DNA of 64,000 nucleotides from Novosphingobium cyanobacteriorum (GTDB lineage: Bacteria > Pseudomonadota > Alphaproteobacteria > Sphingomonadales > Sphingomonadaceae): assembly GCF_029436685.1 (NCBI RefSeq), contig NZ_JAROCY010000001.1, positions 248,001 to 312,000 of the forward strand, written 5' to 3'. The notes beneath the pieces were generated by a model, which saw nothing but the letters and a program-made list of their open reading frames with translations, did not search any database and had not been told where the DNA came from. Both the position numbers and the translations under genes were made by a program. Numbering within the stretch: position 1 is the stretch's first letter; each line of letters starts with the position of its first letter. Below, piece by piece: positions 31,224 through 48,197 of this stretch.

Positions 31224-32699
31224 TCAGGCCTTTGCCGGGCCTTCGTGCAGGCGCAGCATGGCCAGTGCGGCGAAGGCCATCACGCCCGCGCCGATCAGCA
31301 TGGTGAATTCGGGCGCTTGCGGAAAGAAGCTGCGCATCACGCCGCCCATGACCGTGGCCACCATCAGCTGCGGGATCACGATGAAGAAGTTGAACACGCC
31401 GATGTAGATGCCGAACTTGTGCGGTGGCAGCACGCGGGTGAGGATCACGTAGGGCATGCCAAGGATGGAGGCCCAGGCGAGACCGACCAGCGCCATCGGC
31501 ACCAGCAGCAGCGTCTGGTCACGGATCACGAAGAGCAGCAGGAACGCGGCGGCCCCGGCCATCAGGCAGACCATGTGGGTGAGGGCATTGCCGATCCGCC
31601 GCGCCAGCATGGGCAGGGCAAAGGCGGCGAGCGCGGCGACTCCGTTGTAGAACGCGAACATGACGCCGACCCAGTCCGCCCCCGCGTTATAGGCCGCGCC
31701 GGTGGTGTCGGTGGCGTGGAACACGGTGCGGGTGACGACGGGCGTGGTGTAGATCCACAGGATGAACAGCGCGATCCAGGTAAAGAACTGGACGAGCGCG
31801 AGCTGCTTCATCTGCTGGGGCATCTGCGCCAGATCGCTGACGATATGGGCCAGCGCGCCGGTGCTGCGGAACGCGCGCACCGTCGCCTGCACCAGCCCGA
31901 AGGCGACGAGCCCGCCGCCCAAGACATAGAGCTGCTTGTCCAGCGCCAGCGCGAAGACGAGCGCAAGCAGGGCCGCGCCGCCAGCGATCCACAGCACGCC
32001 GCGCGCAGGATAGACCAGTGGCTGGTTCGCCTCGGCTCCGGCCGGTTCGTCGCCAAATGCGGCCAGTTCCTGCGGGCTATATTCACGCACGGAGAAGGCG
32101 GTCCAGGCCACGGCGGCGATGATGGCGAAGGCGCCGAGATAGAAGCTGTAGCGCACCGAGGGCGGCACCACGCCTTCGGGCGCGGTATTGGGAATGCCCA
32201 GGGCGTTGAAGATGACCGGGGCGAGCGAGCCGAGCACCGCGCCCGCGCCGATGAACCAGGTCTGCAGCGCGAACCCTTGGGCGCGCTGGTCGGGCGGGGT
32301 CATGTCTCCGACGAAGGCGCGGAACGGCTCCATCGCCACGTTGAGCGAGGCATCGAGCAGCCAGAGGAACACGGCGGCGGCGAAGAGCATCCCGGCATTG
32401 GGCAGGCCGAGCAGCGCCAGCCCGGCGAGCAGCGCGCCAGCCACGAAATAGGGCCGGCGGCGGCCGAAGCGGCCCCACGTGCGGTCAGACCAGTGGCCGA
32501 TCAACGGCTGCACGATCAGGCCGGTGACCGGCCCGGCGATCCACAGGAAGGCGAGGTTGTCCACGCTGCTGCCCAGCGACTGGAAGATGCGGCTGACATT
32601 GGCGTTCTGCAGCGCGAAGGCGAGCTGGATGCCGAAGAAGCCGAAGCTGGTGTTCCACAGCCCGGCGAAGCTCTGGGCCGGCTTGGTGCTGGCGCGCAT
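31224..32699 (-). CDS. MFS sugar transporter (SLC45-like alpha-glucoside permease)
   Basis: The 491-residue protein has 12 membrane helices. It begins MRASTKPAQSFAGLWNTSFG and continues LAFLWIAGPVTGLIVQPLIG and GHWSDRTWGRFGRRRPYF, strong marks of the sucrose/maltose H+ symporter group (GPH/SLC45-like). Such permeases often sit in TonB-receptor glucan loci of sphingomonads and Caulobacter. It probably takes maltose or short maltodextrins into the cytosol. ATG 32699 has GAGGATA nine to ten bases before it; the frame opens upstream but without protein character. It lies downstream of the LacI gene on the same strand. Confidence 0.88.
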   Translation of the reverse strand: MRASTKPAQSFAGLWNTSFGFFGIQLAFALQNANVSRIFQSLGSSVDNLAFLWIAGPVTGLIVQPLIGHWSDRTWGRFGRRRPYFVAGALLAGLALLGLPNAGMLFAAAVFLWLLDASLNVAMEPFRAFVGDMTPPDQRAQGFALQTWFIGAGAVLGSLAPVIFNALGIPNTAPEGVVPPSVRYSFYLGAFAIIAAVAWTAFSVREYSPQELAAFGDEPAGAEANQPLVYPARGVLWIAGGAALLALVFALALDKQLYVLGGGLVAFGLVQATVRAFRSTGALAHIVSDLAQMPQQMKQLALVQFFTWIALFILWIYTTPVVTRTVFHATDTTGAAYNAGADWVGVMFAFYNGVAALAAFALPMLARRIGNALTHMVCLMAGAAAFLLLFVIRDQTLLLVPMALVGLAWASILGMPYVILTRVLPPHKFGIYIGVFNFFIVIPQLMVATVMGGVMRSFFPQAPEFTMLIGAGVMAFAALAMLRLHEGPAKA

Positions 32700-32760
32700 G
32701 GTGGTATATCCTCTGTGTTCCCTGCCATTCGCATGGCGGGAACGGGTACTCTGCGCGAGA

Positions 32761-32789
32761 TGCATACGAATGTCATGCATGCATGCATG
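32761..32789. promoter_or_regulatory. CATG tandem repeat and GCATAC element before the sugar transporter
   Basis: The 106-base gap between LacI and the transporter contains (CATG)4 at 32774-32789, which is a perfect palindrome, and GCATAC at 32762-32767 next to it. Both lie 60-90 bases before the transporter start. They could be operators for the adjacent LacI protein. No clear sigma-70 pair was seen. Confidence 0.45.
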
Positions 32790-32805
32790 GGGTGTGCGCT
32801 TGGCC

Positions 32806-33840
32806 CTATCCCCCCGTACTCGCCCGCACCACCAACCTGGTCGGCAGCACTGGCGAAGGCGCAGCGCGGTCTTCCACCTGGGCCAGCACGGCCTCCACCA
32901 GCGCTTCTCCCGCAAGGCGCATGTCCTGCATCACGGTGGTCAGCGGCGGGGCGGTGAAGCTGGCGGCGGGGATGTCGTCGAAGCCGACCACGGCGACGTC
33001 ATTGGGCACAGTGAGGCCGACTTCTGCGAGTGCGCGCATCGCGCCGATGGCGATGAGGTCGCTTGCCGCAAAGATGGCGTCAAACTTCTTGCCGCGGGCG
33101 AGGAGCTGCTGCGCGGCGGCATGGCCGGATTCCTCGGAGGATATCGCGTCCACCACCAGTTCGGGGTCCGGCGTCAGGCCGGCAGTCTCTATGGCGCGGG
33201 TGAGGCCGGCGTAGCGTTTCTGGAATTCAGGGTAGTGGACGTCGGCCTGGCCGAGGAAGGCGATGGTGCGGCGGCCGCGGGCGAGCAGGTGTTCGCCGGC
33301 AAGGCGGCCCGCGCCGAAATTGTCCGAGCCGACCGTGGCACCGATGGTGCCTTCGTCCACCGAGCCCCAGCGCACGAAGTGGGTGCCGCTGCGCACCAGC
33401 TGGCGCAGGCGGGTTTCGTAGAGCGTGTAATCGCCATAGCCGAGCAGGATCAGGCCATCGGCGCGGTGGCTTTCCTGATAGCGCTTGTGCCAATCGTCAT
33501 CGAGTTTCTGGAATGAAATCAACAGGTCAAGCCCGCGCGCGGCGCAGTGGCGGGTGATCGAGCCGAGCATCGACAGGAAGAAGGGGTTGATGTTGGATTC
33601 GTCGGGCGTCGGGTCTTCGAAGAACAGCAGGGCAAGCGTGTTTGCGCGCTGCGAGCGCAGGGACGAGGCGTTCTTGTCTACGGTATAGTTCAGCTGGCGG
33701 GCGATCGCCTCGATCTTCTGGCGCGTTTGCAGGCTGACCGACTTGTGCCCGCGCAGGGCGCGGCTGACTGTGGGCTGCGAGACCCCGGCGAGATAGGCGA
33801 TGTCGAAGCTGGTCGGCTTGTTGGATGGGGTGCGCCCCAT
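32806..33840 (-). CDS. LacI-family transcriptional regulator of alpha-glucan use
   Basis: The 344-residue protein starts at MGRTPSNKPTSFDIAYLAGV, with GGGAGA six bases before the ATG; an in-frame upstream extension is not family-like. SFDIAYLAGVSQPTVSRALR is the LacI helix-turn-helix, followed by the hinge-helix region LNYTVDKNASSLRSQRA. The rest is a periplasmic-binding-protein-like sensor domain with FAASDLIAIGAMRALAEVGL and AVVGFDDIPAASFTAPPLTT. It sits between the transporter and the TonB receptor, so it probably represses both until a maltose-type sugar appears. Confidence 0.94.
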   Translation of the reverse strand: MGRTPSNKPTSFDIAYLAGVSQPTVSRALRGHKSVSLQTRQKIEAIARQLNYTVDKNASSLRSQRANTLALLFFEDPTPDESNINPFFLSMLGSITRHCAARGLDLLISFQKLDDDWHKRYQESHRADGLILLGYGDYTLYETRLRQLVRSGTHFVRWGSVDEGTIGATVGSDNFGAGRLAGEHLLARGRRTIAFLGQADVHYPEFQKRYAGLTRAIETAGLTPDPELVVDAISSEESGHAAAQQLLARGKKFDAIFAASDLIAIGAMRALAEVGLTVPNDVAVVGFDDIPAASFTAPPLTTVMQDMRLAGEALVEAVLAQVEDRAAPSPVLPTRLVVRASTGG

Positions 33841-33877
33841 GATCGGTCTCCCGCGCCTGCAGGTTTGGCCCCAAAGC

Positions 33878-33904
33878 ATGGCATAACGAAGTTACCATGT
33901 ATGC
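33878..33904. promoter_or_regulatory. Imperfect palindrome upstream of the LacI gene
   Basis: ATGG-CA-TAAC-GAA-GTTA-CCAT (33878-33898) is an inverted repeat interrupted by two bases in the left arm, 38-58 bases before the LacI start. GTATGC follows at 33899-33904. It fits an autoregulatory operator, but this is inference from position and symmetry. Confidence 0.4.
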
Positions 33905-34026: not shown

Positions 34027-34196
34027 GCCATATTCGCGGCAGCCGCCCCGCGTTCTAATTCTGAACCCGCAGCAAGACAGCCCCAGGGGGCCAAAGGCTG
34101 TGTTGCATCGATCCGGCGCGCCGCGCCGGGAAAAGGGTTCAGGCCGGCAAGGACCAGCAATCGGTTCGGGGCTGGCGAGGGAGAGTGGAAAACACC

Positions 34197-37004
34197 ATGA
34201 CCAATCGGGGTATTGTCGCGCACCGCCTTGGCGGTTCGCTTGTAGCATTGACCGTGGCACTGGCCGCGGCGCCTGCCGTTGCGCAGGAAGCGGCGCAGCA
34301 GGCACAGGATGCAGCGGCTGCTGCTCCGGCCGACGAAGGTGGGATCGTGGTGACCGGCATCCGTGCATCGCTGAACGCATCGGCCTCGATCAAGCGCATT
34401 TCACCCTCCATCGTGGAAGCGGTTTCGGCCGAGGACATCGGCAAGCTGCCCGACGTTTCGATCGCGGATTCGCTTGCACGCCTGCCGGGCGTGACCTCGC
34501 AGCGTCTGGAAGGGCGCGACCAGCGCCTGTCGATCCGTGGCCTTGGCCCCGATTTTTCCACGACGCTGCTGAACGGGCGCGAGCAGGTGACCGTGGGTGA
34601 CAACCGCGGCGTGGAATACGACCAGTATCCGGCCGAGTTCTTCAAGAACGTGGTGGTCTACAAGGCGGCGAACCCATCGCTGGTGGCGGCGGGCATCGCC
34701 GGCACGGTGGACCTGCGCATGCTGCGGCCACTGGCCCAGCGCGACCGCATCGTGGCGGTGCAGGTGCGCGGCCAGATGAACGGCATGAAGAAGCTGAACC
34801 CCGACGGCAGCCGCTATGGCTATCGCGCTTCGGCGACGTATGTCGACAAGTTCGCCGACGACACCTTCGGCATCGCCATCGGCGTTTCGGCCACGGACGC
34901 GCCTTCGCAGAACGAGCGCTACAACGCCTGGGGCTTCCCCAATTCGACCGCGACCGGTGGCGCGCTGCTGCTGGGTGGTGCCAAGCCCTATGTCCAGTCG
35001 AACAAGCTGCAGCGCTATGGCGCGGTGGCGACGCTGGAATACCAGCCGAGCGACAATTTCCATTCGACGCTCGACGTGCTCTATTCCAAGTTCAAGGAAA
35101 CGCAGCGCCTGCGCGGCATCGAATTCCCGATCGCGCCGGACTGGGGTTCGGGCGCAACGGTGCAGCCGGGCTACACCGTCGAGAACGGGCTGGTGACCAA
35201 TGCCACGCTGACCAACATCCACGCGGTGCAGCGCAACGACTACAACAAGCGTGACGCCGACAACTTCTCGGTGGGCTGGAACAACGTGATCGGGATCGGG
35301 GAGAAGACCCACCTGACCATCGACGCCAGCTACAGCCACGCCAAGCGCACCGACTTCCTGCTGGAGACCTATACCGGCACGGGCTACGGCGCGACCGGTC
35401 CGGCTGACACGATCCACATCAGCGCCAATCCCAACGGCACGTTCGATATCGTGCCGACGCTGGACTATGCCGACGACACGCTGTTCGGCATCACCGACCC
35501 GCGCGGATGGGGCTATAACGGCACGAGCGCCGTGGTGCAGGCGGGCTTCCTCAACCGGCCGAGCTTCAAGGACGACCTTGCCTCGCTGCGGGCAAGCCTC
35601 GACGGCGAGATCAGCAATGCCGGTCCGATTGCGGGCTGGGAAGTGGGCGTGAACTACAGCCACCGCAAGAAGACCTCGGCCTTCAAGTCGTACTTCCTGT
35701 GCCCGGATGGCGCCGGCACCAACTGCACGGTGGCGAGCGGGACGACCCAGTTCGCGCCGATCCCGCAGGAAGCGATCGTCGGTTCGGTGCCGCTGGGTTA
35801 CCTCGGCGTGCCCTCGATGCTCGCGCTGAACCCGGTGTACCTCTACAACAACGCGCTGAGCAGCGTTTACGACAACCGCCCGGTTTCGCTGGTGCGCGAC
35901 AACTCGGTGACCGAGAAGGTCTGGACCGGCTATGCCATGATCAAGCTGGACGGCGATCTTGGCGGGCGGAAGATCACCGGTGGCTTCGGCGTGCAAGCGG
36001 TGCATACCGACCAGAGCTCGGTCGGTTCGATCTCGAACTTCTCGAACGGCGTGGTCTCGATCATCCCGACCACCGGCGGCGACAAGTACTGGCGCGTTCT
36101 GCCCAGCGCGAACGTTTCGATCGAGGTGGCCAATTCCAGCTACCTGAAGCTGGCGACCTCGCTGACGATGGTGCGGCCGCGCCTCGATCAGGAGCGCGTG
36201 AACCAGGAGTTCGGCATCGATCCGACGCGGATTGAATCGACCGATCCGGCGTTCAGCGCGTTCACCTCGAACGGCGGCAACCCGCGCCTGCGGCCCTACC
36301 GCTCGTTCAACATCGACGGGTCGGTGGAGCACTACTTCAGCAAGGGCGGCTATGTCTCGGTGGCCGGCTACTTCAAGCGGCTGACCGACTATGTCGATCC
36401 GAGCGCGAGCTTCATCTTCGACTTCAAGGATGCCGCTTCGCTGCTTTCGCCTGCCGATCAGGCGCGGCTGGGCACCTCGCTGGGCCTGGTGAAGGCGCCG
36501 GACAACGGCGGCAAGGGCACGGTGAAGGGTGCGGAAATCACGCTGTCGATGCCGTTTGCGGAGTTCTCGCAGTCGCTTGACGGGTTCGGCTTCTTCGGCA
36601 GCGCTTCCTACACCAAGAGCAAGATCGAGCTGGCCAGCAATCCGGGCAATTCGATCACATTGCCGGGTCTTTCGGCCTGGGTGGGCAATGCCTCGCTCTA
36701 CTACGAAAAGCGTGGGTTCCAGGTGCGCGCCTCGTACCGCTATCGTTCGAAGTTCCTGGCCGAGGTGGCAGGCCTTTCCGCCAACCCGACCTATCGCACG
36801 GCAAAGGCGGAAGGCATCCTCGACGCGCAGATCGGCTATGAATTCCAGCCGGACTCCGCGCTGGCCGGCCTTTCCGTGATGTTCCAGGCGAAGAACCTGA
36901 CCGACCGTCCGTTCATCACCTACCAGAACGACGATCCGCGTCAGGTGATCGACTACCAGCGTTATGGACGCGACTACTACATCAGCCTCAACTACAAGTT
37001 CTGA
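34197..37004 (+). CDS. TonB-dependent receptor for alpha-glucans / maltodextrin
   Basis: The 935-residue receptor has a signal peptide (LGGSLVALTVALAAAPAVAQ, cleavage about residue 30), a TonB-box-like EGGIVVTGIRASLNASASIK, a plug with VEAVSAEDIGKLPDVSIADS and RLSIRGLGPDFSTTLLNGRE, and a barrel ending YYISLNYKF. The GIRASL...IK...VEAVSAEDIGKLPD form is that of the sugar-type receptors found with glycoside hydrolases. Start ATG 34197 is preferred; GGGAGAG lies 12 bases before it, and a GTG at 34185 is the alternative. It leads an operon with a halogenase and three hydrolases. Confidence 0.94.
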   Translation: MTNRGIVAHRLGGSLVALTVALAAAPAVAQEAAQQAQDAAAAAPADEGGIVVTGIRASLNASASIKRISPSIVEAVSAEDIGKLPDVSIADSLARLPGVTSQRLEGRDQRLSIRGLGPDFSTTLLNGREQVTVGDNRGVEYDQYPAEFFKNVVVYKAANPSLVAAGIAGTVDLRMLRPLAQRDRIVAVQVRGQMNGMKKLNPDGSRYGYRASATYVDKFADDTFGIAIGVSATDAPSQNERYNAWGFPNSTATGGALLLGGAKPYVQSNKLQRYGAVATLEYQPSDNFHSTLDVLYSKFKETQRLRGIEFPIAPDWGSGATVQPGYTVENGLVTNATLTNIHAVQRNDYNKRDADNFSVGWNNVIGIGEKTHLTIDASYSHAKRTDFLLETYTGTGYGATGPADTIHISANPNGTFDIVPTLDYADDTLFGITDPRGWGYNGTSAVVQAGFLNRPSFKDDLASLRASLDGEISNAGPIAGWEVGVNYSHRKKTSAFKSYFLCPDGAGTNCTVASGTTQFAPIPQEAIVGSVPLGYLGVPSMLALNPVYLYNNALSSVYDNRPVSLVRDNSVTEKVWTGYAMIKLDGDLGGRKITGGFGVQAVHTDQSSVGSISNFSNGVVSIIPTTGGDKYWRVLPSANVSIEVANSSYLKLATSLTMVRPRLDQERVNQEFGIDPTRIESTDPAFSAFTSNGGNPRLRPYRSFNIDGSVEHYFSKGGYVSVAGYFKRLTDYVDPSASFIFDFKDAASLLSPADQARLGTSLGLVKAPDNGGKGTVKGAEITLSMPFAEFSQSLDGFGFFGSASYTKSKIELASNPGNSITLPGLSAWVGNASLYYEKRGFQVRASYRYRSKFLAEVAGLSANPTYRTAKAEGILDAQIGYEFQPDSALAGLSVMFQAKNLTDRPFITYQNDDPRQVIDYQRYGRDYYISLNYKF

Positions 37005-37081
37005 GGTCGGGTCGCACGGCCGGGTAGCGGTTACGCACCGCCGCCCGGCCGCCTGATCCGGTGAATGTGGGAGAGCTGGCC

Positions 37082-38599
37082 GTGACAGAAGCATCGCCAT
37101 TATCGATCGTCATCGTGGGAGGTGGGACCGCCGGCTGGATGACGGCGGCTGCATTCGGCCACTTCCTGGGCCCCGGCTTTACCGTGCGCCTGATCGAATC
37201 CGAACAGATCGGCACGATCGGGGTGGGCGAAGCGACGATCCCGCAGATCCGCATGTTCAACGATGCGCTGGGGATCGACGAGAACCAGTTCATCCGCGAG
37301 ACGCAGGCGACGTTCAAGCTGGGCATCGAATTCGTGGGCTGGCTGCGGCCCGGCAGCCATTACATGCACGCCTTTGGCGATGTGGGACGGCCGATCGGAC
37401 TGTGCGGGTTCCAGCATTACTGGTCGCGCGCCAGGCGGCTCGGCTTTGGCGGTCCGACCCACGATTACTGCCTTAACGACATTGCCGGCAAGCAGAACCG
37501 GATGCACCGTGGGGCACCGCTGACGGCGCGCAACGTGCCGGAGATGCCGCATGCCTTCCATTTCGACGCGGGGTTTTATGCCGCGTTCCTGCGCCGCTTT
37601 GCCGAAGCGCGCGGGGTGGTGCGGACCGAGGGACGGATCGACGAGGTCCTGCGCGATGGCGAGCAGGGGAACGTGACCGGCGTACGCCTGCAATCGGGCG
37701 AGGTCGTGACCGGGGACCTGTTCATCGACTGTTCGGGCATGCGGGCGCTGCTGATGTCGGCGCTCGGCGTGGGGTACGAGGACTGGACGCACTGGCTGCC
37801 GTGCGACCGTGCGCTGGCGGTGCCGAGTGGGCGGGTGGAGGACTTCACGCCCTATACCCGGTCCACCGCCCACGATGCCGGGTGGCAGTGGCGCATCCCG
37901 CTGCAGCATCGCACCGGCAATGGCCGCGTCTATTGCAGCAGCTTCGTTTCCGACGACGACGCGGCGGCCAGCCTGTTGGCGCATCTCGACGCGCCAGCGC
38001 TGGACGATCCACGCCCGATCCGTTTCACCACCGGCCGACGCCGCGAAGCATGGAGCCACAACGTTATCGCAGTCGGGCTTTCGAGCGGGTTTCTGGAGCC
38101 GCTTGAATCGACTTCTATCCACCTGATCCAGTCGGCCATTTCGCGCATCCTGAAGTTCATGCCCGGCAGGGTGCAGGCGCAGGCGGACCGAGACGAGTAC
38201 AACCGCCAGTTCACCTTCGAGATGGAGCGCATCCGCGACTTCATCGTGCTGCACTACCACCTGAACGCGCGCGACGAACCGTTCTGGCGGGCCTGCCGCG
38301 AAATGGCGCTGCCCGACAGCCTGACCCACCGCATCGAGCTGTTCCGCGCCAACGGCCACATCTTCCGCGACGCGGACGAACTGTTCAGTGAGGTTGCGTG
38401 GTTCCAGGTGATGGCGGGGCAGGGCATCGTGCCTGCCGGCAGCCATGCGCTGGCCGAGGCGATCCCCGAGACTGACCTGAAGGACTACATGGCAGCCCTG
38501 AACCAACTCTATAGCCGGGAGGCGGGCCGGTATCCCAGCCACGCCGACTACATCGCCCGCCATTGCGCCGCCCGTCCGCTTGATGCGGTGCCGGCATGA
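37082..38599 (+). CDS. Flavin-dependent (tryptophan-halogenase-like) halogenase in a glucan operon
   Basis: The 505-residue enzyme has the FAD motif VIVGGGTAGWMTAAAF (GxGxxG at residues 13-18), IGVGEATIP, the halogenase lysine Lys79 in TFKLGIEFVGW, and the WxWxIP block at residues 268-273. All three are the accepted signature of flavin-dependent halogenases that chlorinate or brominate an electron-rich ring. GTG 37082 is chosen because GGGAGAG lies six bases before it; GTG 37061 is the alternative. Its stop overlaps the amylase start by four bases, so it is co-translated with sugar enzymes. The real substrate in such loci is unknown. Confidence 0.93.
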   Translation: MTEASPLSIVIVGGGTAGWMTAAAFGHFLGPGFTVRLIESEQIGTIGVGEATIPQIRMFNDALGIDENQFIRETQATFKLGIEFVGWLRPGSHYMHAFGDVGRPIGLCGFQHYWSRARRLGFGGPTHDYCLNDIAGKQNRMHRGAPLTARNVPEMPHAFHFDAGFYAAFLRRFAEARGVVRTEGRIDEVLRDGEQGNVTGVRLQSGEVVTGDLFIDCSGMRALLMSALGVGYEDWTHWLPCDRALAVPSGRVEDFTPYTRSTAHDAGWQWRIPLQHRTGNGRVYCSSFVSDDDAAASLLAHLDAPALDDPRPIRFTTGRRREAWSHNVIAVGLSSGFLEPLESTSIHLIQSAISRILKFMPGRVQAQADRDEYNRQFTFEMERIRDFIVLHYHLNARDEPFWRACREMALPDSLTHRIELFRANGHIFRDADELFSEVAWFQVMAGQGIVPAGSHALAEAIPETDLKDYMAALNQLYSREAGRYPSHADYIARHCAARPLDAVPA

Positions 38600-40422
38600 A
38601 GATGCGCTCCCTCCTGCTCCCGGTGCTGTTCGCCTGCCAATCCCTCCCGGCAGTCGCTGAACCGTACCGGGAGCGACCCGCTGCGGGTGAGACGGTGTAC
38701 TTCGTGCTGCCCGACCGCTTCGAGAACGGGGACAAGGCCAACGACACCGGCGGGCTGAAAGGGGACAGGCTGCAGACCGGGTTCGACCCCACATCCAAGG
38801 CTTTCTACAACGGCGGCGACATCAAAGGGCTGATGTCGCGGCTCGACTATATTCAGGGGCTTGGGGCGACGGCGATCTGGGTGGGGCCGATCTTCAAGAA
38901 CAAGCCGGTGCAGGGCGCGCCGGGGCAGGAAAGCGGCGGATACCACGGATACTGGATCACCGATTTCACGCAGGTCGATCCGCACTTCGGCACCAATGCC
39001 GACTTCAGGAAGCTGGTCGATGCGGCACATGCGCGGGGCATGAAGGTCTACATGGACATCGTGGCCAACCACACGGCCGATGTGATCCAGTATCGCGAAG
39101 GGGCGGCCAGCGGCTTTGCCTATCGCAGCAGGGCCGACTATCCCTATTCGCGGAAGGGCGGACTTGGCGGCAAGGCGATCAATCCGGGATTTGCGGGCGA
39201 CCAGATTTCAACCGATGCGAACTTTGCCAGGCTGACCGATCCGACCTGGGCCTATACGCCCTATGTCCCCAAGGGCGAGGAACACGCCAAGGTTCCGGAC
39301 TGGCTGAACGATCCCTTGGTTTACCACAACCGGGGCAATACGACGTTTTCCGGAGAGAACAGCCAGTTCGGTGACTTCGTGGGGCTGGATGACCTGTTCA
39401 CCGAGAGCCCCCGCGTGCGGCAGGGCATGATCGCAATCTACGCCAAGTGGATCGACGACTTTGGCGTGGACGGGTTCCGCATCGATACGGCGCGCCATGT
39501 CGATTCCGGGTTCTGGCAGGCGTTCGTGCCGGCGATGCAGGCTGAAGCCAGAAAGCGCGGCATTCCCAACTTCCACATCTTTGGCGAGGTGGCGCGGGAG
39601 AACCCTGACAACGGTTTCATCGCACAGTTCACGCGCCGCGACGGCTATCCGGCAGTGCTGGACTTTGCCTTCCATGCATCGGTCCGCGCGGTTCTGGGAG
39701 CCGGGCAGGGCACCGAGGTGCTGGCGCAACTGTTTGACGGCGACGTGCTCTACAAGGGCGGAGAGAAGGCGGCGATGGCCATGCCGACCTTCATCGGAAA
39801 CCATGATATCGGCCGCTTTTCCACACTGGTGCGCCATGATCGACCGGGCATTTCAGATAAGGAGTTGCTTGAGCGGGTCGCGCTCGGCCACGTGATGCTG
39901 ATGACGCTGCGCGGTTCACCGGTGATCTATTATGGCGACGAGCAGGGCTTCGTGGGCGATGGCAACGACCAGGACGCGCGCGAGGACATGTTTGCCAGCC
40001 AGGTGGCAAGCTATAACGACAACCGCCTGATCGGTACGACCAAGACGACCGCCACCGCCAGCTTTGCCACCGATCATCCGCTTTATCGCCTGATCTCCTC
40101 GCTTGCCACGTTGCGCAAGGCGCATCCGGCACTGATCAGCGGCCGCCAGGTGACACGCGGCTATTCGGACAAGCCGGGGCTGTTCAGTGTATCGCGGTTC
40201 GATCCGGCTACGGGCATGGAATACCTGATCGCCTTCAATACGAGTGACCAGCCACTGCATGCGGCCAGCGTCATCGGTGGCCGGGTCACTGCATTGCAAT
40301 CGTTGTTCGGTAACTGCCCGGCGCAGGTTTCGGCACCGGGTTCCGTTATACTCGATCTTCCTCCGTTCGGCAGCGCCGTCTGCCGGGCTGTCTCCTCCCC
40401 AGACAAGCACGCAGGCCAATGA
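38596..40422 (+). CDS. Secreted GH13 alpha-amylase-family hydrolase
   Basis: The 608-residue enzyme has a signal peptide (about residues 1-21) so it should act in the periplasm. The GH13 triad is present: nucleophile Asp297 in GVDGFRIDTARH, acid/base Glu331 in HIFGEVARE, and Asp404 in FIGNHDIGRF. DIVANHTAD is conserved region I. The extended N-terminal portion and YYGDEQGFVGDGNDQDARED suggest the cyclomaltodextrinase-like or maltodextrin-cleaving alpha-amylases found in Bacteroidetes and sphingomonads. It probably shortens imported maltodextrin. It overlaps both neighbours in ATGA junctions. Confidence 0.93.
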   Translation: MKMRSLLLPVLFACQSLPAVAEPYRERPAAGETVYFVLPDRFENGDKANDTGGLKGDRLQTGFDPTSKAFYNGGDIKGLMSRLDYIQGLGATAIWVGPIFKNKPVQGAPGQESGGYHGYWITDFTQVDPHFGTNADFRKLVDAAHARGMKVYMDIVANHTADVIQYREGAASGFAYRSRADYPYSRKGGLGGKAINPGFAGDQISTDANFARLTDPTWAYTPYVPKGEEHAKVPDWLNDPLVYHNRGNTTFSGENSQFGDFVGLDDLFTESPRVRQGMIAIYAKWIDDFGVDGFRIDTARHVDSGFWQAFVPAMQAEARKRGIPNFHIFGEVARENPDNGFIAQFTRRDGYPAVLDFAFHASVRAVLGAGQGTEVLAQLFDGDVLYKGGEKAAMAMPTFIGNHDIGRFSTLVRHDRPGISDKELLERVALGHVMLMTLRGSPVIYYGDEQGFVGDGNDQDAREDMFASQVASYNDNRLIGTTKTTATASFATDHPLYRLISSLATLRKAHPALISGRQVTRGYSDKPGLFSVSRFDPATGMEYLIAFNTSDQPLHAASVIGGRVTALQSLFGNCPAQVSAPGSVILDLPPFGSAVCRAVSSPDKHAGQ

Positions 40423-42053
40423 CCCGATCCTCCCCGATGAAAATTGCCCCCAAGGCCGAGCCGGCTGAAACGCCGTGGTGGCGAGGCGCAACGATCTACC
40501 AGATCTATCCCCGCAGTTTCTGCGATTCCAATGGCGATGGGATCGGCGACCTGCCGGGCATCACTTCGCGGCTTGAGCATGTGGCGCGGCTGGGCGCGGA
40601 CGCGATCTGGATCTCGCCGTTCTTCAAGAGCCCGATGGACGATTTCGGATATGACGTGTCAGACTATTGCGACGTCGATCCGATCTTCGGCACGCTTGAG
40701 GACTTCGACGCGCTGGTGAAGCGGGCCCACGAACTGGGGCTGAAGGTCACCATCGATCAGGTCTATGCCCACACATCGGAACAGCATCCGTGGTTTGTGG
40801 AAAGCCGTCAGTCGAAGGACAACGCCAAGGCGGACTGGTATGTCTGGGCCGATCCGAAGCCGGACGGCTCACCTCCTTCCAACTGGCAATCAGTGTTCGG
40901 CGGGCCGGCGTGGAAGTGGGATGCGCGGCGCTGCCAGTATTACCTGCACAACTTTCTTTCCAGCCAGCCGCAGATGAACGCGCACAATCCCGATGTGCAG
41001 GAAGCGCTGCTGGGGGTGATGCAGTTCTGGCTGGACCGGGGCGTTGACGGGTTCCGCATCGATGCGCTGAACTTCCTGATGCATGACCCGACGCTGCGCG
41101 ACAATCCGCCCGCGCCCTATGACGGGCGGCGACGGACGCGGCCCTTCGACTACCAGCTGAAGATCTACAACCAGTCGCACCCCGATATCGTGAAGTTCAT
41201 CGAGCGGATCCGTGGCCTTTGTGACCGGTATGGCGCGGTGTTCACCGTGGCCGAAGTGGGCGGCGACCTGGCCGAGACCGAGATGAAGGAGTTCACGGCC
41301 GGGGAGGGCCGGCTGAACAGCGCCTATGGCTTCGATTTCCTCTATGCGCCTGCGATCACGCCCGCGCTGGTGGAAAGCGTGCTGGCCAAGTGGCCCGACG
41401 AGGACGGCCTCGGCTGGCCAAGCTGGGCCTTCGAAAACCACGATGCGCCGCGTGCCCTGTCGCGCTGGTGCGCTCCGGAACAGGTGGATGCCTTTGCGCG
41501 GATGAAGGCGGTGCTGTTCGCTTCGCTGCGTGGCAACATCATCGTCTACCAAGGCGAGGAACTGGGCCTGACGCAGGTGGACATCCCGTTCGAGCAGCTG
41601 CAGGACCCGGAGGCGATCGCCAACTGGCCGCTGACCCTGTCTCGCGACGGAGCGCGGACGCCGTTGCCGTGGGCGGCGCAGGCGGGAGAGGGTGGCTTTA
41701 CCGACGGCGCGCCGTGGCTGCCGCTGGGCGAAGAGAACCTGGCCCGCGCGGTGGACCGGCAGGAAGCCGATCCCGCATCGGTCCTGAACCTGACCACGCA
41801 GCTCATCACGCTGCGGCGTGACCATCCGGCATTGCGCCGGGGCTCGTTCGACGTGTTGCTGGTGGATGAGGCGCGCCTGGTCGTACGGCGGCAGGCCGAG
41901 GGTGAGAGTGTGCTCGCCCTGCTCAACATGGGCGGTGTCGCCGCCGAATGGCCCGCTGCCATGCCGATGAAGGGCAAGGTGCTGGCAAGCGTCAACGGGG
42001 CCGAATTCGGCCACCTGCCGCCGTTTGCGGCGATGATCGTTCAGGATGGATAG
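40419..42053 (+). CDS. Cytoplasmic GH13 alpha-glucosidase
   Basis: The 544-residue enzyme has no signal peptide and begins ETPWWRGATIYQIYPRSFCD, the form of the oligo-1,6-glucosidase/alpha-glucosidase (GH13_23-like) group. The triad is Asp215 (GVDGFRIDALNF), Glu279 (FTVAEVGG) and Asp342 (FENHDAPR). VYQGEELGLTQVD is conserved near the C-terminus. It should release glucose from maltose or short dextrins in the cytosol, feeding the glucokinase encoded downstream. ATG 40419 overlaps the amylase stop; ATG 40437 is possible. Confidence 0.93.
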   Translation: MTRSSPMKIAPKAEPAETPWWRGATIYQIYPRSFCDSNGDGIGDLPGITSRLEHVARLGADAIWISPFFKSPMDDFGYDVSDYCDVDPIFGTLEDFDALVKRAHELGLKVTIDQVYAHTSEQHPWFVESRQSKDNAKADWYVWADPKPDGSPPSNWQSVFGGPAWKWDARRCQYYLHNFLSSQPQMNAHNPDVQEALLGVMQFWLDRGVDGFRIDALNFLMHDPTLRDNPPAPYDGRRRTRPFDYQLKIYNQSHPDIVKFIERIRGLCDRYGAVFTVAEVGGDLAETEMKEFTAGEGRLNSAYGFDFLYAPAITPALVESVLAKWPDEDGLGWPSWAFENHDAPRALSRWCAPEQVDAFARMKAVLFASLRGNIIVYQGEELGLTQVDIPFEQLQDPEAIANWPLTLSRDGARTPLPWAAQAGEGGFTDGAPWLPLGEENLARAVDRQEADPASVLNLTTQLITLRRDHPALRRGSFDVLLVDEARLVVRRQAEGESVLALLNMGGVAAEWPAAMPMKGKVLASVNGAEFGHLPPFAAMIVQDG

Positions 42054-42057
42054 ACCC

Positions 42058-44118
42058 ATGCGCATTTCTGCCGGTTTCACAGCGCCGCTGGCGCTGGCGC
42101 TTTCCTGCGCCCTGCTTCCGCAAGCATCGCTGGCGCAGGAGGCGGCGAAGGTGACCGCCGCTTCGCCCGATGGATCGATGGTGCTGACGGTCACGACCGA
42201 CGCCGACGGGCGCCCCACCTACAGCCTGAGCCGCAAGGGCAAGCTGCTGGTGGGCGCATCGTCGCTCGGCTTCATTCTGGCAGACGGGCCGACCATGGTG
42301 CGCGGCAACCGCATCGTCGGTTCAGACATCGGCAGCGGCAAGGAGACGTGGGAGCAGCCGTGGGGTGAGCGGCGCTTCGTGACCGACGAGCACAACGATC
42401 TGGTGGTGAAGTTCGAGCAGGTGCCCGAATGGGGCGGGCGGCGCATGAACGTGCGCTTCCGCCTGTTCAACAACGGCTTCGGCTTCCGCTATGAACTGCC
42501 CGAGCAGGCGGCGATGAAGACCATGAAGATCGCCGACGAGCTGAGCGAGTTCGCGCTGACGCAGAACGGCAGCGCGTGGTGGATCCCCGGCGGCGAATGG
42601 AACCGGTATGAGCAGGTGTACCAGAAGACGCCGATCGATGGCGTTTCCACCGCGCACACGCCGATCACCATGAAGCTGGACGATGGCACGCACATCGCCA
42701 TCCACGAAGCCGCACTGGTGGATTACTCCGGCATGTGGCTGAAGCGGATCACCGGGACCACGTTCCGCTCAACACTTTCGCCTTCGCCCAACGGGCCGAA
42801 GGTGGTGCGCGACCTGCCGTTCAACACGCCGTGGCGCACGATGCGGATTGCCGACAACGCGGCCGGTCTGGTGGAGAACGATCTGGAGCTGAACCTGAAC
42901 GAGCCGAACAAGCTGGGCGATGTCAGCTGGTTCAAGCCGATGAAGTACATCGGCATCTGGTGGGGCATGATCAGGGGCGACTGGACCTGGGCCGAAGGGC
43001 CCAAGCATGGCGCCACCACCGAACGGACCAAGCAATACATGGACTTTGCCGCCAGGCACCACTTCGGGGGCGTGCTGGTGGAAGGCTGGGACAAGGGCTG
43101 GAACGGCAACTGGTTCGGCAATGGCAAGGACTTCAGCTATACCCAGGCCACGCCGGATTTCGATCTGAAGGCGGTGACCGCCTATGGCGCGAAGAAGGGC
43201 GTTCAGCTGATCGGCCACCATGAGACTGGCGGCAACATCGCCAACTATGAGGCGCAGCTGGACGATGCGATGAAGCTCTATGCTTCGCTGGGCGTGCATG
43301 CGGTGAAGACCGGGTATGTCGCCGATGCAGGGGGCATCCTGACACCGGGGGATGGCCCGGGCACCTATCGCATGGAGTATCACGACGGGCAGCGGCAGGT
43401 GGAGCATCACCTGAAGGTGGTGGAAACGGCGGCGAAATACCGCATCGCCATCAATGCGCACGAGCCGGTGAAGGATACCGGCCTGCGCCGCACCTATCCC
43501 AACTGGATCGACCGGGAAGGCGCGCGGGGCATGGAATACAACGCGTGGGGGCAGTTCGCCAACGGGCCCAGCCACGAACCGACGCTGGTCTATACCCGCA
43601 TGCTGTCAGGCCCGATGGACTTCACTCCGGGCGTGCTGAGCCTGGAGGGCGCGAACCAGGTGCCGCTGGCCTCCACGCTGGCCAAGCAGCTGGGGCTTTA
43701 TCTCGCGCTCTATTCACCGATCCAGATGGCGGCGGATTTCATCGAGAACCTTGAGGCGCATCCGAGGGAACTTGCCTTCATCGAGCAGGTGCCGGCCGAC
43801 TGGGCGGAAAGCCACCTGATCGCCGGCGAAGTGGGCGAATATGCGATCTTTGCCCGCAAGGACCGCAACAGCGCCGACTGGTATATGGGCGGGGTGAACG
43901 ACGCTACTGCGCGCGACCTTGCGCTGAAGCTCGATTTCCTTGATCCCGGCATGACCTATACCGCCACGATCTGGAAGGATGGCGAAGGCGCCACTTACGC
44001 CACGCAGGCACGCCACCGCATCGCCTATGAAACGCGCAAGGTGAGGAAGGGCGATGTCATCCCGTTGTGGCTGGCGCCCGGCGGGGGTGCGGCGGTGCGA
44101 CTGCATCCGGGGAAATAA
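42058..44118 (+). CDS. Secreted GH97 alpha-glucosidase, inverting (SusB-like) type
   Basis: The 686-residue enzyme has a signal peptide (about residues 1-26), an N-terminal beta-sandwich and a (beta/alpha)8 domain. Three Glu motifs are seen: Glu389 in GHHETGGN, Glu469 in INAHEPVKDTG and Glu493 in RGMEYNAWG. The 24-residue gap between the last two equals that between the SusB Glu508 and Glu532, which supports the inverting subgroup with Glu bases; retaining members have an Asp nucleophile instead. It would trim glucose from maltodextrin ends in the periplasm. ATG 42058 is preferred over ATG 42046. Confidence 0.93.
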   Translation: MRISAGFTAPLALALSCALLPQASLAQEAAKVTAASPDGSMVLTVTTDADGRPTYSLSRKGKLLVGASSLGFILADGPTMVRGNRIVGSDIGSGKETWEQPWGERRFVTDEHNDLVVKFEQVPEWGGRRMNVRFRLFNNGFGFRYELPEQAAMKTMKIADELSEFALTQNGSAWWIPGGEWNRYEQVYQKTPIDGVSTAHTPITMKLDDGTHIAIHEAALVDYSGMWLKRITGTTFRSTLSPSPNGPKVVRDLPFNTPWRTMRIADNAAGLVENDLELNLNEPNKLGDVSWFKPMKYIGIWWGMIRGDWTWAEGPKHGATTERTKQYMDFAARHHFGGVLVEGWDKGWNGNWFGNGKDFSYTQATPDFDLKAVTAYGAKKGVQLIGHHETGGNIANYEAQLDDAMKLYASLGVHAVKTGYVADAGGILTPGDGPGTYRMEYHDGQRQVEHHLKVVETAAKYRIAINAHEPVKDTGLRRTYPNWIDREGARGMEYNAWGQFANGPSHEPTLVYTRMLSGPMDFTPGVLSLEGANQVPLASTLAKQLGLYLALYSPIQMAADFIENLEAHPRELAFIEQVPADWAESHLIAGEVGEYAIFARKDRNSADWYMGGVNDATARDLALKLDFLDPGMTYTATIWKDGEGATYATQARHRIAYETRKVRKGDVIPLWLAPGGGAAVRLHPGK

Positions 44119-44175: not shown

Positions 44176-44212
44176 TTGGCACGCATAGCTATCACCTGCA
44201 TACTTATGCGTG
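44176..44212 (+). promoter_or_regulatory. Putative zwf operon promoter with overlapping palindrome
   Basis: TTGGCA (44176-44181), a 17-base spacer and CATACT (44199-44204) make a reasonable sigma-70-type promoter for the zwf operon. The -10 lies inside the palindrome GCATA-CT-TATGC (44198-44209). A wider repeat, CACGCATA (44180-44187) and TATGCGTG (44205-44212), embraces both elements. A repressor bound there would block the promoter; the LacI protein of the glucan locus is the nearest candidate. Confidence 0.55.
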
Positions 44213-44290
44213 CTGAAGGGACCGGCGTTCCGGTATAGTCCGGGCGCCGCGCCGGGCTTTGCCCGCACATGCAAGGGAGAATTCGCGTCG

Positions 44291-45739
44291 ATGGCCGAGA
44301 CAAGCTGCTCCGCCCTGCTTCTGTTCGGCGCGACCGGGGACCTATCCCGCCGCATGCTGCTGCCCTCGCTCTATGCGCTGCATGAGGACGGGCTGATCGA
44401 TCCCACATTGCGGATTGTAGGTACCGCACGCTCGGAACACGACGATGCCGAGTTTCGCGAATTTGCGGCGCAGGCACTGTCGGAGTTCCTGCCGCCAGAC
44501 CGCAAGGACGAGACCAAGCTCGCCAGCTTCCTCGACCGGCTGCAATACCAGACGCTCGACGCCTCGAACGTCGATGGGTTCGGCGATCTGGCGAAGAAGC
44601 TGGGTGACACCAGCTGCGGCCTCTCGATCTTCCTGTCGACGGCACCCGCCCTGTTCGAGCCGACCATACAGGGTCTGCGCAACGCAGGCCTTGCGCATGA
44701 CAATGTGCGGATCGGCCTGGAAAAGCCGCTGGGCAACGATCTCGCATCCAGCCGCCGGATCAACGATGCGGTGGCAGCCGGGTTCTCGGAAAACCAGATC
44801 TTCCGCATCGATCATTACCTGGGCAAGGAAACGGTGCAGAACCTGATGGCTCTGCGCTTTGCCAACATGATGTTCGAACCGCTGTGGAATTCCGCGGGGA
44901 TCGACCACGTGCAGATCACCGTCAGCGAGACCGTGGGCCTTGAAGGGCGCAAGGGGTTCTATGACGATACCGGCGCGCTGCGTGACATGGTGCAGAACCA
45001 CATGCTGCAACTGCTGGCGCTTACCGCGATGGAGCCGCCGCGCGATTATGACGCGACCTCGATCCGCGACGAGAAGGTGAAGCTGCTGCGCGCGCTGCGC
45101 CCGGTAAAGCCGGAAGAGATGGTGCGCGGCCAGTATCGCGCCGGGGCGGTGAAGGGCGAAAGCGTCAACGGTTACCTTGAAGACCTTGGCCAGCAGTCTG
45201 ACACCGAGACGTTCGTGGCGATCAAGGCGCATGTCGACAACTGGCGCTGGCAGGGCGTGCCATTCTACCTGCGCACGGGCAAGCGACTGGCCGAACGGCG
45301 CAGCGAGATCGTGCTGCAGTTCAAGCAGGTGCCGCACAACATCTTTGCCGAACGTGGCGGCCGGCTGCGCGCCAACCGTCTGGTGATCCGCCTGCAGCCC
45401 GAGGAATATGTGCGGCTTCAGGTGATGGCCAAGGAACCGGGGCTCGATCGCGGTGGCATCGTGCTGCGTGAGGTGAACCTTGATCTGTCGCTGACCACCG
45501 CCTTTGCAAAAGCGCGCCGCCGCATCGCCTATGAGCGCCTGCTGTTGGACCTGATCGAGGGCGAGCAGACCCTGTTCGTGCGACGGGACGAGGTGGAAGC
45601 ACAGTGGAAGTGGGTCGACGCGATCCGCAAGGTCTGGGAAAGCGGCGACCATGAAGTGAAGCCCTATGCCTCCGGCGGATGGGGGCCGAATGCCGCCATC
45701 GCCCTGACCGAGCGTGACGGGCGCAGCTGGAATGACTGA
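44291..45739 (+). CDS. zwf: Glucose-6-phosphate 1-dehydrogenase
   Basis: This enzyme oxidises glucose 6-phosphate to 6-phosphogluconolactone, the first step of the Entner-Doudoroff and pentose phosphate routes. The 482-residue protein begins [20 protein letters not shown] (NAD(P) motif GATGDLS), and carries [13 protein letters not shown], the substrate site with the catalytic His region, and [11 protein letters not shown] near the C-terminal half. Start is ATG 44291, ten bases after GGGAGA; the frame opens earlier without family character. Its stop lies within the first codons of pgl. Confidence 0.96.
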
Positions 45740-46352
45740 TCCGGTCAAGGTCCGCTGGGCCGATCCGGGCGATGCCGCCGCCGTGGCGGACCGCATCGCG
45801 GCTGAGTTGGCCAAGCCGGGGCCAAAGCGCATCGCCTTCACCGGGGGAAGCACCCCGATCAAGGTGCTGTCGCTGCTGAAGGACCAGCCGCTCGACTGGT
45901 CCAGCGTGACGATTGCACTGACCGACGATCGTGTGGTGCCCGACGATCATCCTGCCTCCAACTTCGGCAAGATCCACGCCGCGTTGGGGGGAAGTGGCGC
46001 GAGGTTCGAGCGACTGGTGGAAGGCGCGGAGGTAGAACCTTTCGACCTGGTATGGCTTGGCATGGGCGAGGACGGGCATGTCGCGTCGATCTTCCCCCAT
46101 ATGCACGCCCTGCTGCGCCCGGGACCGACGGTGATCGCCACCACCCCGGTGCCGTTGCCACCCGAGGCGCCGTTCGACCGGTTGAGCCTGAACAAGCGGG
46201 CGCTGAAGGCAACGAAGGAGATCATCCTTGTTGTTACCGGCAAGAGCAAGAAAGCGCTGATCCAGAAGGTGCTTGCCGGCTCCGACGCCTATCCCGTTTC
46301 CGATTTCCTGCGTGGCTATGGCCCGCCTGTGACCATTTACTGGAGCGAATGA
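45732..46352 (+). CDS. pgl: 6-phosphogluconolactonase
   Basis: The lactonase opens 6-phosphogluconolactone to 6-phosphogluconate. The 206-residue protein starts at [20 protein letters not shown] and shows [13 protein letters not shown] (phosphate-binding loop), [16 protein letters not shown] and [15 protein letters not shown], the family signatures. It is somewhat shorter than the roughly 230-residue average. The start overlaps the zwf stop by eight bases and its stop overlaps the edd start. Confidence 0.95.
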
Positions 46353-48172
46353 TGCCGCTGAACCCCACAGTCGCCAAGGTGACCGAGCGGATCGTGGAAC
46401 GCTCGCGCAAGAGCCGTTCCGCCTACCTTGACCTGATCGAGCGGCAGCGCGGCGATGGCCTGAACCGGCCCCGCCTCTCATGCGGCAACCTGGCCCACGG
46501 CTTTGCCGCATCGGGCGAGGACAAGCCGGTGATCCGCAGCGGCAATGCCATGAACATCGGCATCGTCACCGCCTATAACGACATGCTGTCCGCGCATCAG
46601 CCCTATGGTCGCTACCCCGAGCAGATCAAGGTGTTCGCCCGTGAAGTGGGCGCGACGGCGCAGGTCGCAGGCGGCACCCCGGCGATGTGCGATGGGGTGA
46701 CTCAGGGGCAGGATTCGATGGAACTGTCGCTGTTCAGCCGCGACGTGATCGCCATGTCCACGGCGGTGGCGCTGAGCCATGCGATGTTCGAATCCACGCT
46801 GCTTCTGGGCATATGCGACAAGATCGTGCCCGGTCTGTTGATTGGATCGCTGCGTTTCGGCCACCTGCCGACCATCCTGATCCCGGCCGGCCCGATGCCC
46901 AGCGGCCTTGCCAACAAGGAAAAGGTCCGCGTCCGCCAGCTTTATGCCGAGGGCAAGGTGGGGCGAGAAGAACTGCTGGAAAGCGAAAGCGCGAGCTACC
47001 ACTCCGCCGGCACCTGCACCTTCTATGGCACGGCCAATTCCAACCAGATGATGATGGAAATGATGGGCCTGCACATGCCGGGCTCGTCGTTCGTGCTGCC
47101 GGGCACCAAGCTGCGGCAGGAACTGACCCGCGCCGCCGTGCACCGCATCGCCCAGATCGGTTGGGATGGCGATGATTACCGTCCGCTTGGCCACTGCGTG
47201 GATGAAAAGGCCATCGTGAACGCCATCGTCGGTCTGCTCGCCACGGGTGGATCGACAAACCACGTCATCCACCTGCCGGCAATTGCGCGGGCTGCGGGCG
47301 TGCAGATCGACTGGGATGATATGGACGAGCTGTCCTCGGTCGTGCCTCTGATCGCCAGCATCTATCCCAACGGGGCCGGCGAAGTGAATTACTTCCACGC
47401 GGCGGGCGGCATGCCCTATGTGATCAAGGAACTGGTCGGGTCCGGCCTTGCCCATGCCGACATTCGCACGGTCTATGGCAAATCGCTTGAAGAGGGCGCG
47501 CAGAACCCCGTGATGGATGGTGACACGCTGTGCTGGACACCCGCACCGGAAGCCAGCGGTGACGACAAGATGCTGCGTCCGGTTGCCGCACCTTTCCAGG
47601 CGGAAGGCGGCTTTCGGCTGCTCAAGGGCAACCTCGGGCGCGGGACGATCAAGGTCAGCGCAGTCGACCGTTCGCGCTGGACGATCGAGGCCCCCTGCCG
47701 CGTGTTCCATGACCAGAACGATGTGCTCAAGGCCTTCAAGGCGGGCGATCTGGAACGCGACGTGGTCGTGGTGGTCCGCTTCCAGGGGCCGGCGGCCAAC
47801 GGCATGCCGGAACTGCACAAGCTGACCCCGCCGTTGGGTGTGCTGCAGGACCGTGGCTTCAAGGTGGCGCTGGTGACCGACGGGCGCATGTCCGGGGCAT
47901 CGGGCAAGGTGCCCGCAGCCATCCACATCTCGCCCGAGGCCAAGCTGGATGGCCCCCTCGCACGCCTGCGCGATGGCGACGTCGTGAGGGTCTGCGCCGA
48001 GACGGGCGAACTGGCGGCTCTTGTTCCGCAGGCGGAATGGGATGCACGCACGCCGGCCGAGGCACCTGTTGCCGGGATGGGCGTGGGGCGTGAGCTGTTC
48101 GCCATGATGCGCCATTATGCCGACCCCGCCGAGCGCGGCGGTTCGGCGATGCTGGCGTCTGCCGGGCTTTGA
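46349..48172 (+). CDS. edd: Phosphogluconate dehydratase
   Basis: This [4Fe-4S] dehydratase turns 6-phosphogluconate into KDPG, the committed step of the Entner-Doudoroff path. The 607-residue protein begins [20 protein letters not shown] and carries [20 protein letters not shown] with a cluster-binding Cys, [20 protein letters not shown] and [20 protein letters not shown]. Length matches the Edd branch (about 600) rather than dihydroxy-acid dehydratase (about 560-615). Two in-frame ATGs (46349, 46352) adjoin the pgl stop. The partner aldolase eda is not in the window. Confidence 0.95.
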
Positions 48173-48197
48173 TGGCCAGTTTGCAGGGATGGGAACG

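Follow-up and report, generated by a model that had tools for sequence, protein, structure and literature searches.

A predicted flavin-dependent halogenase gene in a sugar-uptake locus of Novosphingobium cyanobacteriorum, and its recurrent association with TonB-dependent receptors

Flavin-dependent halogenases are defined by their GxGxxG and WxWxIP motifs, and use FADH2, O2 and halide in a chemistry established for the family to run through a lysine and a glutamate. In the tryptophan halogenases PrnA, RebH, PyrH and Thal, free tryptophan is bound by substrate-closing loops. BrvH from Brevundimonas, by contrast, is described in the available text of PMC5945002 as not halogenating tryptophan and as turning over indole slowly, with its authors questioning whether indole is its substrate in nature. 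Xcc4156 from Xanthomonas campestris brominates indole derivatives but not tryptophan; its site is open, and the authors suggest larger substrates, possibly peptides (PMC7336383, in part). Open sites that do not accept tryptophan are reported for both enzymes (PMC5945002, PMC7336383), the loops of BrvH and of the Xanthomonas enzyme being described as short and open (PMC7336383), and the available portions of the two papers state that neither for BrvH nor for the Xanthomonas enzymes is the native substrate known (PMC5945002, PMC7336383). In a study combining t-SNE and a tree, both BrvH and the Xcc enzymes fall among the halogenases that do not act on tryptophan (PMC8269204, in excerpt). The brvH gene is preceded by another halogenase gene (PMC5945002, same portion), as in some of the tandem loci surveyed here. 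In a colony-morphology transposon screen of a freshwater Sphingomonas, a single insertion fell in a gene named tryptophan halogenase (PMC11340318, in excerpt).

We analyzed a 64,000-nucleotide stretch of the N. cyanobacteriorum genome (hereafter the window), which carries a gene of this family. The closest solved relative of the window protein was the tryptophan halogenase of Pseudoalteromonas sp. L11 (9luq; 51% identity, TM 0.93/0.96), on which no paper was found in our literature search, followed by Xcc4156 (6y1w; 47% identity, TM 0.94) and BrvH (6frl; 44% identity, TM 0.91/0.94). The same three led the PDB sequence search (E 1.6e-164, 2.3e-145 and 5.8e-132, respectively, with tryptophan halogenases at 7e-82 and weaker) and, in that order, the Foldseek matches of the halogenase model. 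Xcc4156 and the window protein have in common a C-terminal motif region (ELF-E-xxW-xQVM-GQG) and short loops around the active site, whereas BrvH has a loop 1 of equal length but a C-terminal motif that differs in the alignment. PrnA, RebH, PyrH and Thal have the fold and catalytic residues of the window protein at 31-34% identity; however, the window protein aligns without the loops that close over free tryptophan, its loop 2 being ungapped to Xcc4156 and its loop 1 of BrvH length. On these alignments, the window gene is predicted to encode a halogenase of the already known BrvH/Xcc4156 type.

For the locus as a whole, the closest described system is the malA cluster of Caulobacter crescentus, in which, as in the window, a TonB-dependent receptor (TBDR) and two amylase-family genes serve maltodextrin uptake (PMC3917699). 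Unlike the window locus, the six genes listed for that cluster in the available text include no halogenase. The features of the window locus are as follows.

31224-32915 (mechanical ORF start), minus strand: MFS transporter, probable inner-membrane sugar permease (PF07690, E 4.7e-20)
32806-33879, minus strand: divergent LacI-family regulator (PF00356, E 4.5e-14; PF13377, E 7.4e-35)
34185-37004, plus strand: TBDR of the TonB-Xanth-Caul type (Pfam Plug, E 1.3e-16; TIGR01782)
37005-37081, plus strand: receptor-halogenase gap, with a G+C-rich stem-loop (37005-37060) and a ribosome site (sequence)
37082-38599, plus strand: predicted flavin-dependent halogenase of the BrvH/Xcc4156/9luq type, 505 aa (PF04820, PDB matches, AlphaFold2, Foldseek)
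38596-40422, plus strand: GH13 alpha-amylase-family protein with a hydrophobic, signal-like N-terminus (PF00128, E 5.9e-67)
40419-42053, plus strand: second GH13 protein, with DUF3459 (PF00128, E 5.2e-117)
42046-44118, plus strand: GH97 protein (PF10566, E 5.5e-100)
44210-49163, plus strand, 3' of the maltodextrin genes: G6PD, ILVD/EDD-family dehydratase and glucokinase (Pfam)

Because the G6PD, dehydratase and glucokinase genes come downstream, the region reads as starch/maltodextrin uptake feeding glucose catabolism. Uptake and Entner-Doudoroff catabolism are seemingly neighbours here (window 44210-49163). The upstream TBDR scored 535.8 bits against the TIGR01782 cut-off of 310; the start of its ORF at 34185 is mechanical, with an in-frame ATG at 34197. 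Apart from sugar genes, Pfam revealed no biosynthetic genes in this operon.

The halogenase gene was assigned a GTG start at 37082, 77 bases past the TBDR stop and preceded by a ribosome-site-like GGGAGAG stretch, in preference to the mechanical first start of the ORF (GTG at 37061). Its TGA stop at 38597-38599 overlaps the GH13 ATG at 38596 by 4 bases. The preliminary description of this DNA had placed the gene between a TonB receptor and an amylase gene with just such an overlap, and its coordinates, frame and stop proved right. It was equally correct that no flavin reductase is encoded beside the gene, i.e., the two PF01613 genes of the genome lie about 283 kb away on the same contig and on another contig. 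A scan of the receptor-halogenase gap (36990-37100) detected no small open frame 12 to 90 codons long and no candidate for a RiPP-type precursor peptide gene, and a few ORFs of 12-90 codons were present in two other gaps of the operon. Across 105 paired loci, the distance from the receptor stop to the GxGxxG codon had a median of 134 nt and a maximum of 342, too short for a precursor peptide of the usual size to be encoded in between. The window gap has a predicted MFE of -42.6 kcal/mol, with a z of only -1.67 against dinucleotide shuffles. A hairpin specific to the halogenase was considered and rejected, since z fell below -2 after 80/105 paired receptors but also after 38/68 unpaired ones (mononucleotide shuffles for the paired set). 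Stem-loop-type folding potential was seen 3' of the majority of the TBDR genes compared, whether or not a halogenase was paired with them, and perhaps limits downstream expression.

The protein matched PF04820 over profile positions 2-457 of 458 (E 3.1e-184; 613.5 bits against a cut-off of 21). GxGxxG was located at G13-G18 and WxWxIP at W268-P273, while K79 corresponds to PrnA Lys79 and E342 aligns with PrnA Glu346. An uninterrupted 505-aa reading frame carrying GxGxxG, K79 and WxWxIP bears out the earlier claim of an intact gene with its catalytic residues. No signal peptide is apparent, as had also been claimed, the first Rossmann strand beginning at residue 7, and the protein is probably cytosolic. 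The observation of a halogenase gene at this position is confirmed as real. An AlphaFold2 model built on a 49-sequence alignment reached a pLDDT of 94.4, with only the block of residues 41-50, in the region of the FAD loop, scoring low (63). Among 148 non-identical family members, K79 was kept in 146, E342 in 145, W268 in 148 and W270 in 145. Judged by these residues and the predicted fold, the window protein is very probably an active halogenase.

Alternatively, the fold might have been kept in a repurposed, non-halogenating flavoprotein that now serves in redox sensing or as a flavin monooxygenase of a different sort, and the low activities reported for BrvH would fit such a change (PMC5945002, in part). 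Against this, the lysine, the glutamate and WxWxIP are retained almost everywhere in the 148 members, and both BrvH and Xcc4156 do brominate indole in the available accounts (PMC5945002, PMC7336383); we consider the repurposing quite improbable. Pairwise comparison with eight related loci (Nei-Gojobori) gave dN/dS values of 0.155-0.325 for the halogenase, which are close to the 0.180-0.429 obtained for the receptor and the 0.156-0.388 for the nearest GH13 gene. The window halogenase is under clear purifying selection. Chance is excluded because 80 related loci (the best of 591) encode proteins at 51-84% identity and dN/dS lies at 0.155-0.325.

In order to compare gene neighbourhoods, genes were labelled with home-made profiles, checked against Pfam for selected proteins. 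Set A comprised the best 80 of 591 confirmed loci, chosen for similarity to the window protein (51-84% identity). In 70/80 of these best matches, a same-strand TBDR ended no more than 700 bases 5' of the halogenase; two further loci (L044, L054) had a TonB barrel of another subfamily directly 5' by Pfam, giving a total of 72/80. Among the exceptions, one gene separated receptor and halogenase in L060 and L079, the receptor was divergent in L068 and only distant in L043, and L066 was cut by a contig end. Two halogenases lay in maltodextrin-type loci in which no TBDR was found (L042, L048). In the 21-kb locus L065, where a TBDR was likewise not detected, the halogenase directly followed a sugar ABC-transporter operon (L065:5634-11500; Pfam matches to a permease and a MalK-like ATPase). 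A same-strand GH13 gene stood directly 3' in only 28/80 of the same best matches, and a GH13 gene anywhere in the locus in 67/80. The coupling to alpha-glucan hydrolases that the preliminary description had put first is thus local (28/80 against 72/80). That description laid misplaced emphasis on the hydrolases; what is conserved beside the halogenase is the receptor rather than the amylase.

Two other samples were compared. In set B, i.e., 28 loci from 11 related genomes, 34/37 halogenase ORFs were within 5 kb of a receptor and 18 came directly after one. Set C was an even draw of 150 Pseudomonadota genomes with ten halogenase candidates scored per genome; a halogenase match (E up to 1e-60) was present in at least 15/150, the N. 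cyanobacteriorum genome included. Excluding the latter, 45/54 halogenase ORFs and 29/34 loci in 14 genomes lay within 5 kb of a TBDR, 13 of these halogenases directly following a same-strand TBDR, and 5/34 loci had no TBDR within 5 kb. Set against a rough expectation of 18%, a background we call generous and which was taken from the receptor density of the N. cyanobacteriorum genome alone, 29/34 has a binomial probability of about 2e-17. TIGR01782 receptors were found in at least 13 of the 15 halogenase genomes and in at least 8/135 of those without a halogenase, these counts being lower bounds with five candidates scored per genome (Fisher 1e-11, which ignores kinship). On the same scoring of five candidates, G135 and G157 had a halogenase without a TIGR01782 receptor. 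The earlier remark that halogenase genes recur beside TonB receptors thus extends well beyond sphingomonads. In all, the loci fetched contained 204 PF04820 ORFs, the majority of those counted lying close to a TBDR. The receptor link implies that many PF04820 genes annotated as tryptophan halogenases are unlikely to serve secondary metabolism. No description of the receptor-halogenase pair, or of the association of SapC with Cupin_8 treated below, was present among the open-licence literature matches listed. Two proteobacterial-type TBDR-halogenase loci bore the labels Verrucomicrobiaceae (L018) and Singulisphaera (L078), and are probably mis-binned contigs.

We are highly confident that the halogenase is a dedicated accessory of receptor-driven uptake loci. 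It is also a common but optional partner of TIGR01782 receptors, because across 21 genomes 26/87 such receptors had a halogenase within 8 kb (45/55 halogenase rows used, weak ones left out; 87 receptors from 89 rows, two merged and one partial omitted) and because two maltodextrin loci of the genus do not have the gene. In these (L174 in G005 and L175 in G002), the receptor is followed by GH13, with neither a halogenase nor a remnant detected by tblastn. Their receptors nest inside the clade of halogenase-paired receptors, which indicates that the halogenase was lost. A passenger gene that plays no part in sugar use and rides with receptor loci by chance or mobility could be dispensed with in this way, and could also be missing from the six genes listed for the C. 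crescentus malA cluster (PMC3917699, in part); strong purifying selection (dN/dS) and the same post-receptor position across alpha-, beta- and gammaproteobacteria make this highly improbable.

Of the six PF04820 matches in the N. cyanobacteriorum genome itself, five are full-length and the other is weak and partial. The five full-length genes form four clusters, each with a TBDR directly before the first halogenase, in a genome with 68 plug matches in 4.8 Mb. Four of its receptors exceeded the TIGR01782 cut-off, three of them halogenase-paired, while the receptor at the fifth halogenase locus (L087) is of another kind. Elsewhere in the family, halogenases accompanied receptors beside GH3 genes, or occurred with SapC and Cupin_8 and no GH13. 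Different paralogue clades were matched with distinct types of receptor and hydrolase. This matching, together with the fact that the gene follows the importer rather than the hydrolases, would fit an enzyme that detoxifies or tags an aromatic entering with the glycan, such as a plant or algal phenolic substituent. Starch and maltodextrins, however, bear no aromatic group, the window operon contains no aromatic-degradation gene by Pfam, and halogenation would be an unlikely means of detoxification; we think a role on the cargo rather improbable.

We know of no halogenated TBDR. Among aligned receptors (seven of other subfamilies, five paired and two unpaired, were left out), Trp442 was present in 0.89 of 70 paired and 0.18 of 60 unpaired sequences, a pattern that follows receptor kinship. 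Trp442, Trp365 and Trp249 were each rejected as a common target, being kept where the halogenase was lost and absent from other paired clades. Within the maltodextrin clade, no receptor Trp column separated loci with and without the halogenase, in a test of low power, and one Tyr column separated them weakly, with two loss loci only. Halogenase and receptor co-diverged with r 0.81 across 57 loci (partial r 0.75 when the nearest GH13 was controlled for), more strongly than the halogenase did with GH13a, GH13b or GH97; LacI and MFS tracked it as well or better. Co-divergence was not taken as proof.

The co-divergence of LacI and MFS with the halogenase, and the persistence of sugar-locus membership without a TBDR in L042, L048 and L065, speak for a small-molecule product, i.e., a halogenated indole or phenol made in a sugar-dependent manner as a signal or a weak antimicrobial guarding shared food, with co-regulation as the only link to the locus. 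BrvH and Xcc4156 also act weakly on free indole in vitro (PMC5945002, PMC7336383, as available). This reading fits less well with a window operon in which only sugar genes, and no other biosynthetic genes, were identified. Furthermore, a search of the genome for tryptophanase (TIGR02617) was negative, so that the usual source of free indole is missing, and a single metabolite would not be expected to need several paralogues in one genome, every one of them paired with a receptor of its own. We regard the small-molecule reading as possible but no better than tentative, and about as likely as the explanation that we favour.

The favoured explanation, which we also put forward tentatively, is a working halogenase on the receptor side of the sugar-uptake locus, whose substrate would be a bulky aromatic that is linked to the receptor and is probably peptidyl. 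LacI-controlled induction would, on the gene order, cause receptor, halogenase and hydrolases to be made together, and FADH2 would be supplied in trans by one of the two flavin reductases encoded elsewhere. FADH2, O2 and halide would then yield a hypohalous species, directed to the substrate by Lys79 and Glu342. Given an active site without tryptophan-clamping loops, a bulky substrate would be expected, the best candidate being an aromatic residue within a peptide or protein. Inheritance of the gene with the TBDR, and not with particular hydrolases, would make the partner receptor before export, or a protein or peptide made with it, the likeliest such substrate. We place the chance that the substrate is peptidyl or a protein somewhat short of even, and consider it unlikely that it is the receptor itself. 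Counted against the favoured explanation are the lack of a common receptor Trp, the three loci without a TBDR (L042, L048, L065), the 5/34 set C loci with none within 5 kb, the pairing of just 26/87 receptors, the loss of the halogenase from two maltodextrin loci, the unspecific co-divergence and the lack of SapC and Cupin_8 genes in the window locus. The receptor linkage nevertheless narrows the search for the substrate to a short list, i.e., the receptor, its cargo, or whatever is produced together with the receptor, and makes halogenase function easier to test. Should the target be a protein, such halogenation would add a new type to the modifications of bacterial surface proteins.

Sister loci carry further candidate components, although the window operon has neither a SapC nor a Cupin_8 gene. 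Genes for SapC (PF07277) and Cupin_8 (PF13621) lay between or beside receptor and halogenase in L132, L134, L211, L217, L221, L229 and L239. In the N. cyanobacteriorum genome, a Cupin_8 and SapC pair on contig C34 (L089:3952-5692, minus strand) is divergent from a TBDR-halogenase-GH3 set (L089:5772-10592). Across the 21 genomes, 8/11 strong Cupin_8 matches (E up to 1e-40) fell within 8 kb of a halogenase, against a rough expectation below 1%, as did 7/21 SapC matches, the others being mainly single unlinked copies, one per genome (42 halogenase rows used; three partial or weak rows omitted). The nearest solved relatives of one Cupin_8 protein were mostly protein hydroxylases (FIH, JMJD5 and JMJD7), and also included TYW5 (the JmjC protein C2orf60), which acts on tRNA. 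The Cupin_8 linkage and these relatives count towards the favoured explanation. SapC as a peptide-recognition fold was tried and rejected, there being no PDB match by Foldseek (E up to 0.001), VIA-align (Z at least 2) or profile. The AlphaFold2 model of one SapC (L132:8383-9099, minus strand) reached a pLDDT of 94.9, and the SapC proteins of these loci possibly represent an unsolved fold. That the halogenase, joined in sister loci by an FIH-like Cupin_8 oxygenase and SapC, would form a cytosolic system modifying outer-membrane receptors or a co-made peptide before export is a reading to which we give little credence; if true, halogenation and hydroxylation of bacterial receptors would be a means of tuning nutrient uptake. 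In L210, L214, L218, L235, L123 and L068, three or four halogenase paralogues are clustered divergently from one TBDR, in most cases together with Cupin_8, and one paralogue clade of these clusters is very divergent, with 21-32% identity to the window protein.
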